A DNA stretch of 21,349 nt, taken from positions 1-21,349 of IMG/VR virus record IMGVR_UViG_3300025086_000307. One strand, given 5' to 3'. Below the pieces are notes generated by a model. The model was not told where the DNA came from. It did not search any database and saw only the letters and a program-made list of their open reading frames with translations. Position 1 is the first letter of the stretch. Each line of letters starts with the position of its first letter. This DNA is from a virus. Both the position numbers and the translations under genes were made by a program. Below, one piece after another: positions 6,322 through 8,913 of this stretch.

Positions 6322-7500
6322 CTACGATGTAGTTACGTTTTCTGGGTATGTGTCACCGAAAGCGGCGTTACCTGTAGAACCTACAGCAGCACCAGCAACG
6401 AGTTCAACACAGCAAGCAGGGTTTAAGAAATCTGCACCCATAGCGAGACGTCCAAGTATTACGTCACCTTGGTATACAACTGAAACATCTCCAGAAGTTA
6501 CTTGAACCTGTGGTCCAATAGCTTCTACAACTCCAGCTCCTTCTTTTTGGAAGATTAAGCCACAGCTGTTAGCGAAGTCAGATGAGTTACCATAGTTGTT
6601 GTTGATACCTGTTACAGAAGCTCTACCGTCTTCTGCTGTTTCACCAACAAATGAACCAACGTTTCCGGGTGATGTTACACCGGGGTTAGTTGCAGATGCA
6701 GAACCATACTTAGTTCCGTATGATCCAAAGAATGGAATGTTCATTGACTTGAAGATCTTAATGCCTGCAATTTCAATGATGCCGTTTCCAGACTGTAGTG
6801 TATCACCTTGCTCGTCTCTGTTGATAAGACCGTTAGAACCAACATTTTGTATTAGTTCGTAGTACTGTCTTGGGTTCAACACAGCTACTCTACCTTCAGT
6901 AGAAACTCCTTTCTCATCTAGTGCAGCGGCTGCATCGTAGAAAGCGTTTATTAATGAAGCTGGTACATAAGCATCAGATGCTTGGTTATTTGTACCTACT
7001 CTGATCTGTGTTCCACCGGGCTCAACGAAGCCTGACTTAGTGATTGGTGAAGCAACTCTAGCTCCCTTCGCAATTTGACGGAAGATAAGTCTATCGTACT
7101 TCTCAGCTAGAGCATAGCCAATCTTCTTAGAGATTTCACCACGTAGATCGTAGTGTGCTAATGTTTCATCTAGCTCATAAACAAACGCTGAACTGATTAA
7201 TAGGTCATCGCAAGTTATGGTTTTTTCAGCTACTGGAGGTGCTCCATCAGAGTTACCTAGTATGCTGTTACCGGGTGTATGATACTCGGCTTTTGTGCGT
7301 CCAGTGTAGATGAACTGAAGACTCTTCCCGTTTGTTAGGGTTCTCTTCATTACAAGGTCTCTAGCGATTGTGTTACGCTGGAAGCCTTTGAACATCTCTC
7401 CACTGAACAGCTTTAGATACAGGGCTCTTGCGGAGCCTGTAGCGTTCGATTGACCCGTCCGTGTAAGACTTGCTGGGTCGTTAGTTGATTGTTGTGCCAT
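6322..7500 (-). CDS. Major capsid protein (T7 gp10-like, HK97 fold)
   Basis: 392 residues; T7 gp10A has 345. The N-terminal part (about residues 24-90) matches the T7-like pattern of ALYLKLFSGEMFKGFQRNT, 'GKSLQF' and 'Y.TPGNSI', followed by the LISSAFVYELDETLAHYDL segment (about residues 101-119), typical of the HK97-fold spine in podovirus capsids. The C-terminal half carries a Gly/Ser/Asn-rich insertion (about residues 260-310) and ends in Ala/Gly-rich sequence. It forms the icosahedral shell. The gene has its own upstream non-coding stretch (7501-7650) and a terminator just downstream, which suggests a separately controlled, highly expressed unit. No clear Shine-Dalgarno sequence precedes the ATG. 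I see no T7-style frameshift extension: the stop is followed almost at once by the terminator. Confidence 0.93.
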   Translation of the reverse strand: MAQQSTNDPASLTRTGQSNATGSARALYLKLFSGEMFKGFQRNTIARDLVMKRTLTNGKSLQFIYTGRTKAEYHTPGNSILGNSDGAPPVAEKTITCDDLLISSAFVYELDETLAHYDLRGEISKKIGYALAEKYDRLIFRQIAKGARVASPITKSGFVEPGGTQIRVGTNNQASDAYVPASLINAFYDAAAALDEKGVSTEGRVAVLNPRQYYELIQNVGSNGLINRDEQGDTLQSGNGIIEIAGIKIFKSMNIPFFGSYGTKYGSASATNPGVTSPGNVGSFVGETAEDGRASVTGINNNYGNSSDFANSCGLIFQKEGAGVVEAIGPQVQVTSGDVSVVYQGDVILGRLAMGADFLNPACCVELVAGAAVGSTGNAAFGDTYPENVTTS

Positions 7501-7532: not shown

Positions 7533-7658
7533 TTTGTACAAATTTTTCTCGAGTTTTTTGTAGGTCTATCCCTACCGTCTAGACGGCTCAAGGTATCTCC
7601 TTAGAGGCTTGTGCCAAGTGGTAAGGGAGGACTTGCACCTCCCAGCTGGCTTAACCAG
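7533..7658. repeat. Cluster of inverted repeats in the capsid leader
   Basis: The intergenic stretch before the capsid gene holds at least six short inverted repeats one after another: TTTGTACAAA (7533-7542), CTCGAG (7548-7553), GTAGG/CCTAC (7560-7575, 6-base loop), CCGTCTAGACGG (7575-7586), AAGG/CCTT (7590-7602) and GGGAGG/CCTCCC (7625-7643, 7-base loop). A CTGG/CCAG hairpin (7646-7658) spans the stop of the preceding peptide gene. None is followed by a T-run on the coding strand, so they do not look like terminators. This is the only sizeable gap in the late region and the natural place for a late promoter and transcript-processing sites, as before T7 gene 10. I could not pick out a promoter with confidence. 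Confidence 0.6.
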
Positions 7659-7755
7659 TTACCTTTTTGTATGCTATGCCACGATACTTAAGTAATTGTA
7701 ATCTAGCATGATCTCTTTGCTCTTTGATTCGAGCTTGTAGTTCTACTTGAGTCAT
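7651..7755 (-). CDS. 34-residue peptide downstream of a glutamine-riboswitch-like RNA
   Basis: A short frame (34 codons plus TAA) with sequence starting MTQVELQARIKEQRDHARLQ, then LLKYRGIAYKKVTG. A Shine-Dalgarno-like GAGG lies six bases before its ATG (plus-strand CCTC at 7762-7765). The N-terminal two thirds looks like one amphipathic helix; the C-terminus is basic and contains Y-R-G-x-x-Y, a string I associate with short cyanobacterial peptides (for example DUF4278-type). The gene follows the riboswitch-like pseudoknot at 7771-7824. The 'Downstream-peptide' RNA class is named for lying before short peptide genes in marine cyanobacteria and their phages, which strongly supports this as a real gene. 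Its function is unknown; related cyanobacterial riboswitches control inhibitors of glutamine synthetase. Confidence 0.78.
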   Translation of the reverse strand: MTQVELQARIKEQRDHARLQLLKYRGIAYKKVTG

Positions 7756-7770
7756 AATTAACCTCAGTAC

Positions 7771-7824
7771 CTGACCCCCGTTCCATGGTCAGATTGCATG
7801 CGTCCCTGATGGGATGAACGGACG
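7771..7824 (-). promoter_or_regulatory. Glutamine-II ('Downstream-peptide') riboswitch-like pseudoknot
   Basis: On the minus strand, CCGTTC (plus 7816-7821) pairs with GAACGG (plus 7778-7783) to form P1. Inside it, TCCC/GGGA around an ATCA loop (7803-7814) forms P2, followed by the string GGGACGCATGCA. Then CTGACC (plus 7787-7792), inside the P1 loop, pairs with GGTCAG (plus 7771-7776), outside P1. This makes an H-type pseudoknot next to the GAGG ribosome-binding site of the 34-residue peptide. The CGTTCA-(stem)-GGGACG core, pseudoknot layout and short downstream gene match what I know of the glutamine-II riboswitch family of picocyanobacteria and cyanophages. A rival pairing of CGTCC (7820-7824) with GGACG (7801-7805) would break P1 and P2. 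Glutamine binding is inferred, not shown. Confidence 0.75.
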
Positions 7825-7830
7825 TGGCTA

Positions 7831-8913
7831 TTACCCTATAGCTGGTGCTGTAAGGGCAACGGATGTAGACTCAGCTGATGCTAAGTCGAGTGGAAAGTTG
7901 TGTGCGTTACGCTCATGCATAACTTCCATTCCAAGGTTCTGTCTGTTTACAACGTCAGCCCAAGTAGGGATGACTTTGCCGTTTGTATCAACGATGGATT
8001 GATTAAAGTTAAAACCATTAAGGTTGAAAGCCATGGTGCAGATGCCCATAGAGGTGAGCCATATGCCAACGACGGGCCAAGTAGCCAGAAAAAAGTGTAA
8101 GCTACGAGAATTATTAAAAGATGCATATTGAAAAATTAATCTACCGAAGTAGCCGTGGGCTGCAACGATGTTGTATGTTTCCTCATCTTGACCAAACTTA
8201 TAGCCATAGTTCTGTGAGACATTCTCAGTTGTTTCTCTAATGATAGAGGAAGTAACAAGACTTCCATGCATAGCAGAGAAAAGAGATCCACCGAATACCC
8301 CAGCAACACCGAGCATGTGGAACGGATGCATAAGGATATTGTGTTCTGCTTGAAATACGAACATAAAGTTAAAAGTACCAGAAATACCAAGAGGCATACC
8401 ATCACTGAAACTCCCTTGTCCGAAAGGGTAGACGAGAAAAACAGCTAGTGCTGCGGATAGAGGTGCTGTGTAAGCGACAAATATCCAAGGTCTCATACCT
8501 AGTCTATAAGATAGTTCCCACTGTCTGCCTGCATAAGCTGCTACACCGATGAGGAAATGGAAGACAACGAGTTGGTATGGTCCACCATTATACAACCATT
8601 CGTCCAAGGTTGCGGCTTCCCATATAGGATAAAAATGTAGTCCGATTGCATTAGAGGAGGGGACGACTGCTCCTGATATAATATTGTTTCCGTAGATTAA
8701 GGAACCGGAAACTGGTTCACGTATGCCGTCAATGTCTACTGGCGGTGCAGCGATGAAGGCGAGTATAAAACAAGTTGTTGCAGCGAGCAAGCAAGGGATC
8801 ATTAAGACACCAAACCAACCTACATATAGTCTGTTGTTTGTGCTAGTAACCCACTCGCAGAATCTCTGCCAGTTACTGGCTTGGCTTTCTCTTGTTACTG
8901 AGATAGCTGCCAT
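7831..8913 (-). CDS. psbA: Photosystem II reaction-centre protein D1
   Basis: 360 residues, full length for D1. Numbering is one higher than standard because of an extra residue near the N-terminus ([10 protein letters not shown]). Residues corresponding to Tyr161 (Y162), Asp170 (D171), Glu189/His190 (E190/H191), the chlorophyll ligand His198 (H199), the iron ligands His215 and His272 (H216, H273), the manganese ligands His332/Glu333/His337/Asp342 (H333, E334, H338, D343) and the processing site Ala344 (A345) are all present, so the protein looks functional. Residue 131 (standard 130) is Gln, as in D1:1-type proteins, not Glu. Five transmembrane helices are expected. D1 turns over fast in light; phage copies keep photosynthetic energy flowing during infection. 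The ATG directly abuts the hli stop (TAAATG), so the two are almost certainly co-transcribed and coupled. Confidence 0.98.

Follow-up and report, generated by a model that had tools for sequence, protein, structure and literature searches.

The closest described systems are the type 2 glutamine riboswitches of Prochlorococcus, which bind glutamine, activate expression and are associated with DUF4278 genes (PMC6316151). The crystal structure of a type 2 aptamer provides the nucleotide numbering used here and shows a long-range C19:G41 pair (PMC6698751). DUF4278 also forms the N-terminus of IF17 (gifB), a glutamine synthetase inactivating factor of cyanobacteria, the gene of which is controlled by a type 1 glutamine riboswitch in Synechocystis (PMC6316151). 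Glutamine riboswitches have furthermore been described in other phages, namely in T4-like cyanophages (PMC9602691, PMC9964418) and in the methylophage Melnitz (PMC9004378). In the literature searched, we did not find a description of this known riboswitch class in the setting analyzed here, between psbA and the capsid gene of a podovirus. The locus lies on a viral stretch of 21,349 nt (IMG/VR record IMGVR_UViG_3300025086_000307), the whole of which is called the window in the following.

The aptamer and its distribution

A comparison of the whole 21 kb window with the 4227 families of Rfam 15 by cmscan returned Glutamine-II (RF01704) as the sole match at gathering score, with 57.6 bits against a gathering cut-off of 33, an E-value of 8.2e-12 and coverage of model positions 1–60 of 60. 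The type 1 glutamine aptamer (glnA leader, RF01739) reached 17.4 bits on the window, below its cut-off of 35, and this identity was rejected. Hence, the Glutamine-II/Downstream-peptide class proposed in a preliminary description of this DNA is upheld far above the cut-off of the covariance model, and the coordinates and the psbA–capsid placement given there are exact (Table 1). The CGTTCA, GGGACG and GAGG strings that it had pointed out are all found in the element region, and the short gene led by GAGG that it placed after the element is a 34-aa ORF. The three helices named in it all pair, and two of them merely change names, its P2 and P3 being P1 and P2 of the literature. Its P1 (7821-7816/7783-7778) also pairs, but corresponds to the pseudoknot (PK) helix, and the outermost pair assigned to it, 7821-7778, competes with C19:G41. 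P2 is longer by one U-G pair, 7793-7770, and in full spans 7793-7787/7776-7770. The ligand-site nucleotides C17, G18 and C19 (CGC 7802-7800), G41 and G42 are all present together with C1-C5/G36-G40 (7820-7816, 7783-7777). By class membership, and as far as its sequence can tell, the element belongs to the true type 2 (Glutamine-II) riboswitches.

Table 1. Features of the psbA–capsid locus of the window, listed in gene order along the minus strand
Feature	Position	Strand	Basis or detail
hli	9105-8914	minus	directly before psbA
psbA (photosystem II D1)	7831..8913	minus	Pfam PF00124, 290.7 bits
Glutamine-II (type 2 glutamine) riboswitch aptamer	7769..7823	minus	RF01704 and P1/P2 covariation
PK helix	7820-7816 / 7783-7779	minus	C1-C5 / G36-G40 in crystal numbering
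P1 of the literature	7814-7811 / 7806-7803	minus	UCCC/GGGA
P2 of the literature	7792-7787 / 7776-7771	minus	CUGACC/GGUCAG
Shine-Dalgarno-like GAGG	7762..7765	minus	from sequence; 6 nt upstream of ATG 7755
34-aa YRG micro-protein gene	7651..7755	minus	MTQVELQARIKEQRDHARLQLLKYRGIAYKKVTG, core LKYRGIAY; ORF, related loci, sub-cut-off DUF4278 match
tRNA-like three-way junction	7620..7663	minus	minimum-energy fold and geometry in relatives
Junction, acceptor-like helix	7663-7659 / 7624-7620	minus	GGTAA / TTACC
Junction, small arm	7658-7646	minus	CTGG-TTAAG-CCAG; contains peptide stop codon
Junction, T-arm-like	7643-7625	minus	GGGAGG-TGCAAGT-CCTCCC
Module B, structured RNA in capsid leader	7558..7617	minus	covariance model R1 and covariation
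Module B, P1	7615-7613 / 7587-7585	minus	
Module B, P2	7611-7608 / 7592-7589	minus	
Module B, bulge		minus	conserved AUAC
Module B, P3	7606-7604 / 7599-7597	minus	
Module B, palindrome		minus	GTCTAGAC
Module B, P4	7575-7571 / 7564-7560	minus	loop GAUAGA
Major capsid protein gene (Gp10A-like)	6322..7500	minus	Pfam PF21703, 249.2 bits

The preliminary description had also named compensatory changes in relatives as a mark of a true element, and these were found. Among 50 distinct phage aptamer sequences, 97.6% of the cells in paired columns are paired, and double changes occur in 77 cells compared to a mean of 15 after shuffling. Ten of the 17 aptamer pairs are changed on both sides (4/4 in P1 and 6/7 in P2), none of 500 shuffles reached the covariation score, and sliding the partner by 1–3 columns takes this score down from 0.31 to 0.08 or less. 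As the search pattern used to gather the relatives imposed an invariant PK helix, only P1 and P2, both of which covary strongly, count as independent evidence.

A gapped pattern search identified at least 119 viral contig stretches with the invariant aptamer core, most of the matches listed being flanked by psbA on the upstream side, by the capsid gene on the downstream side or by both genes, and with later searches of T7-like cyanophage contigs added, at least 223 viral loci carry the aptamer. In 66 of 150 loci, no more than 20 nt separate the end of psbA from the aptamer. The element is also present in named isolates, as detected by the covariance model in P-SSP7 (48.1 bits), S-RIP2 (56.1 bits) and NATL2A-133 (51.5 bits) and by blastn in S-TIP37, S-TIP28, S-RIP1, P-SSP2, P-SSP3, P-SSP6, P-SSP10, 9515-10a, P-GSP1, KBS-P-1A and S-SBP1; the public annotations of the isolates are blank at this site or list a hypothetical protein. 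When loci were picked by capsid homology alone, the strict aptamer pattern was found in 30 of 35, and Rfam recovered one of the five misses (L445). S-B28 possesses psbA and the capsid-leader RNA in the same layout and gave no Glutamine-II match, which counts against the explanation preferred below. In this phage (L461), the 3′ end of psbA is present in repeated copies after psbA at 1640-1780; the riboswitch is absent from the phage and the capsid-leader RNA is kept.

The YRG micro-protein and its host counterparts

An ORF with a YRGxxY motif, which we defined after a first set of loci had been inspected, follows the aptamer in 213 of the 214 phage loci with at least 260 nt of downstream sequence, the exception being L025. 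The start codon is mostly located 20–28 nt past the aptamer core and thereby within reach of the ribosome. The encoded peptides are short (14–48 residues, some only 14–18) and rich in Arg and Lys; that of P-SSP7, the host of which is Prochlorococcus MED4, reads MKVTFVYRGVAYTRVIG. In 139 distinct phage peptides, the first tyrosine, the arginine and the second tyrosine are invariant and the glycine is changed once, and the sequence outside YRGxxY, including the charged N-terminus, varies widely. The dN value was lower than dS in 35 of 40 independent pairs with a summed dN/dS of 0.54, indicative of purifying selection on the ORF. These counts bear out the short downstream gene that the preliminary description expected from the class name.

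DUF4278 (PF14105) was the sole Pfam match of the window peptide, with 14.7 bits below the curated cut-off of 25.3; going by score, we classify the peptide as DUF4278-like and not as a DUF4278 member. Of 16 phage peptides, 14 match this family as well (best E-value 6e-7), and no other is matched consistently. The LxYRGxxY core, which typifies DUF4278, is present in the window peptide as LKYRGIAY and also in host proteins that pass the cut-off, while the profile match between phage peptide and host proteins spans only nine residues. Searching for a solved structure that resembles the peptide yielded chance matches only.

Glutamine-II loci were found in 11 Prochlorococcus/Synechococcaceae genomes with 2–7 copies per genome; since the pattern scan of genome contigs was loose and its matches mostly due to chance, only picocyanobacterial loci were kept. 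Most of these host elements have proteins with 1–3 YRG repeats downstream, and all seven host YRG proteins scanned match DUF4278, the first of them with 33.1 bits against the cut-off of 25.3. Because host Glutamine-II switches thus precede YRG/DUF4278 proteins, phage and host share one regulatory unit, of which the phage carries the single-repeat form. The Glutamine-II element and the type of gene that it is predicted to control are common to cyanopodoviruses and their picocyanobacterial hosts, and the direction of transfer was most likely from the hosts, from which the cyanopodoviruses would have taken both riboswitch and gene.

Further ORFs were observed near the peptide gene in some relatives. 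Five loci (L020, L053, L073, L101 and L114) contain a second small conserved ORF in the interval between peptide and capsid gene, which has a CGHCGDKKPECRKQKKCLKDLL-like ending and might encode a zinc-binding micro-protein. Six loci (L008, L017, L043, L055, L056 and L099) carry an ORF of about 120 aa right after the YRG peptide and before the capsid gene, with a signal-peptide-like start (MKTLALAALAS...) and the look of an outer-membrane barrel.

The junction and the RNA in the capsid leader

The less expected part of the locus is an unnamed RNA in the capsid leader, which we call module B, together with the tRNA-like junction in front of it. Module B is an undescribed structured RNA of about 60 nt that covaries strongly. 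As its variable stem was misaligned by MAFFT, anchor parsing and a length-matched set were used instead. Anchor parsing revealed a common architecture in 123 of 126 distinct sequences, in which P1 (GGCN/NGCC), P2 (NNAG/CUNN), an AYAC bulge and a P3 of 3–4 bp capped by UACG-like tetraloops are followed by a palindrome, GTC(TA/AT/-)GAC, and P4 (GTGG/CCAC) with the loop GAUAGA. Changes on both sides were found at P1 pair 4 in 51 sequences, at P2 pair 2 in 59 and at P4 pairs 3 and 4 in 20 sequences each, the latter with 100% pairing. In P3, more than 70 sequences carry changed letters on either side of the helix; here, the 100% pairing is not independent because the parser required it. In the length-matched set, 53 cells show double changes compared to 17.6 after shuffling.

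The covariance model built for module B (R1) matches the window with 57.6 bits and an E-value of 4e-11. Each of the 35 loci picked by capsid homology alone is matched as well, once and just before the capsid gene; L394, one of these loci, is itself part of the model. Overall, nearly all of the T7-like cyanophage loci analyzed possess module B. R1 matched none of 11 host loci, and module B has no match in Rfam. That module B might be a phage promoter recurring among the late genes was considered as well and rejected, since only one copy exists in each of the window, P-SSP7 and S-RIP2. The stretch GGGATAGACC in the capsid leader (window 7575-7558, minus strand) may resemble the transcript start of T7 gene 10, which could be a coincidence.

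Directly before module B, about half of the distinct loci carry a hairpin with the loop CACCTCAGAGTCGGA, and 75 distinct loci carry a T-arm whose loop has seven bases, in most cases together with an acceptor-like helix. The distance from the end of the T-arm to module B is 8 nt in 56 and 9 nt in 18 of these 75 loci, a spacing that equals the geometry of a tRNA acceptor plus discriminator base, and the acceptor helix has a mean length of 4.8 bp compared to 3.1 bp when the upstream sequence is shuffled. The junction of the window (7663-7620) matched a tRNA neither in ARAGORN nor in Rfam and is hence termed only tRNA-like. In several relatives, tRNAs end at the same boundary: L056, L306, L374 and L381 (6224-6154, minus strand) possess a complete tRNA-Gly(UCC) ending there, L273 a complete tRNA called as Leu, and the tRNAs scored by Rfam in L304 (2128-2195) and L357 (1565-1632) end exactly on it. 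The hairpin that replaces the junction in L003, L010, L099, L101 and others has an almost invariant loop of 15 nt, CACCTCAGAGTCGGA, which was not found in six host genomes; a host origin of the CACCTCAGAGTCGGAC hairpin loop was rejected on account of its absence from six host genomes.

The junction may plausibly serve to signal processing of the capsid mRNA, whereas a remnant of an attachment site is disfavoured because the 5′ strand matches. We tentatively propose, as a possibility that falls somewhat short of even, that the gap between psbA and the capsid gene forms an RNA-based control island, in which a tRNA or minimal tRNA mimic would come after the glutamine riboswitch and YRG peptide and place its 3′ end on the base at which module B begins, the latter being a new class of structured RNA. 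Host tRNA-processing enzymes might then cut at this point (tRNA punctuation) and free a capsid mRNA that starts with a stabilizing or regulatory RNA of its own. These observations suggest that capsid expression in T7-like cyanophages depends on RNA elements absent from annotation.

Possible function and comparison with known systems

Taken as a whole, the locus is in our view probably best explained by a genuine riboswitch within a late mRNA, which turns on a host-mimicking YRG peptide at high glutamine and tunes nitrogen flux. The element would most likely be part of a polycistronic late transcript comprising psbA, riboswitch, peptide and capsid gene. High intracellular glutamine would lead L-glutamine to lock the pseudoknot, as expected of the phage copy from its class, and translation of the 34-aa micro-protein would rise, where the ON direction is taken from the host type 2 switch by analogy. 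Since psbA ends close to the aptamer (7 nt between its stop codon and the riboswitch match in the window) and neither a sigma-70-like promoter nor a terminator-like site was found on the minus strand between psbA and the capsid gene, control within such an mRNA is most likely exerted at the level of translation. Terminator-type control was rejected, as no minus-strand terminator-like site follows the aptamer. The micro-protein is most likely a cut-down mimic of the glutamine-controlled DUF4278/YRG proteins of the host and would act on the same target within nitrogen assimilation as they do, so that nitrogen flux would be tuned in the infected cell. It counts against this explanation that a Shine-Dalgarno sequence is missing in 78 of 168 relatives, that the window peptide scores below the DUF4278 cut-off and that its profile match to host proteins is limited to nine residues. 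A sequestering helix acting as the expression platform was rejected, as no conserved one was found in relatives; the ribosome-binding region has no conserved alternative pairing (mean accessibility 0.48 vs 0.50), which offers no route from binding to a change in translation and likewise speaks against this reading.

The preliminary description had guessed at an inhibitor of glutamine synthetase, that is, an inactivating factor that binds and inhibits the host enzyme at high glutamine. Host type 2 switches indeed control DUF4278 proteins that resemble the IF17 N-terminus (PMC6316151), and a short, Arg/Lys-rich peptide would suit this role. The phage peptide keeps only the YRG half-motif of DUF4278, the sole Pfam family matched consistently, and the corresponding region of IF17 is reported to be dispensable for inhibition, while such inhibition is itself unproven in picocyanobacteria (PMC6316151). 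As some of the phage peptides moreover comprise merely 14–18 residues, the guess is weakened and we regard an inhibitor as unlikely.

Quite unlikely, too, is a cis effect of riboswitch and peptide on the capsid gene in the fashion of a leader peptide, with glutamine-driven translation remodeling the junction and thereby setting capsid mRNA processing or translation. Such an arrangement would agree with the position of the peptide stop codon in the small arm of the window junction and, for several relatives, within its 5′ half, with the variability of the peptide outside YRGxxY and with the junction and capsid-leader RNA lying directly 3′ of it. But an invariant YRGxxY would be superfluous in a leader that acts purely in cis, at least one extra gene separates peptide and junction in many clades, and in other clades the junction follows whichever stop codon precedes it. 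A decayed remnant of host transfer, the aptamer of which folds and regulates nothing useful, might be suspected because phage genomes carry host-derived fragments and some relatives such as S-B28 are without the element, but it is highly improbable given the compensatory P1/P2 changes in very diverse phages, the maintained YRGxxY core with dN below dS and the strict aptamer in 30 of 35 capsid-chosen loci, plus L445 by Rfam.

Since a host-type glutamine sensor lies ahead of a host-type tiny gene, the virus may read the nitrogen state of its host in the middle of an infection. If the copy is active, widespread marine viruses would sense this state via glutamine and reply with a host-like micro-protein, and the viral adjustment of nitrogen use in highly abundant photosynthetic cells could be put to the test. 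The locus would also give a starting point for work on the YRG/DUF4278 proteins of Prochlorococcus, which are unexplained.

With the small DUF4278/YRG proteins of Prochlorococcus (e.g. PMM1846), the phage peptide shares the upstream Glutamine-II switch and the LxYRGxxY core. While the host proteins contain 1–3 repeats and those tested pass the cut-off, the phage peptide consists of a variable charged N-terminus and one YRG core and scores below it. IF17 (gifB) resembles this system in its DUF4278 N-terminus and its control by a glutamine riboswitch (PMC6316151), but its switch is of type 1, and the remainder of IF17 is missing from the phage peptide. The glutamine riboswitches of other phages are likewise aptamers borne by the phage itself; these phages, however, are myoviruses, their switches are of the glnA type where the type is stated, and other genes are attached to them (tmRNA in Melnitz). 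Compared to RF01704, the window element has the PK helix, P1, P2, the conserved CGC and GGAACGGG nucleotides and the short ORF just downstream in common with the class, and it differs in a linker between P1 and P2 that is shorter than in the consensus, in a peptide with one YRG repeat where the host has two or three, and in its setting, a T7-like cyanophage in which it lies between psbA and the capsid gene.
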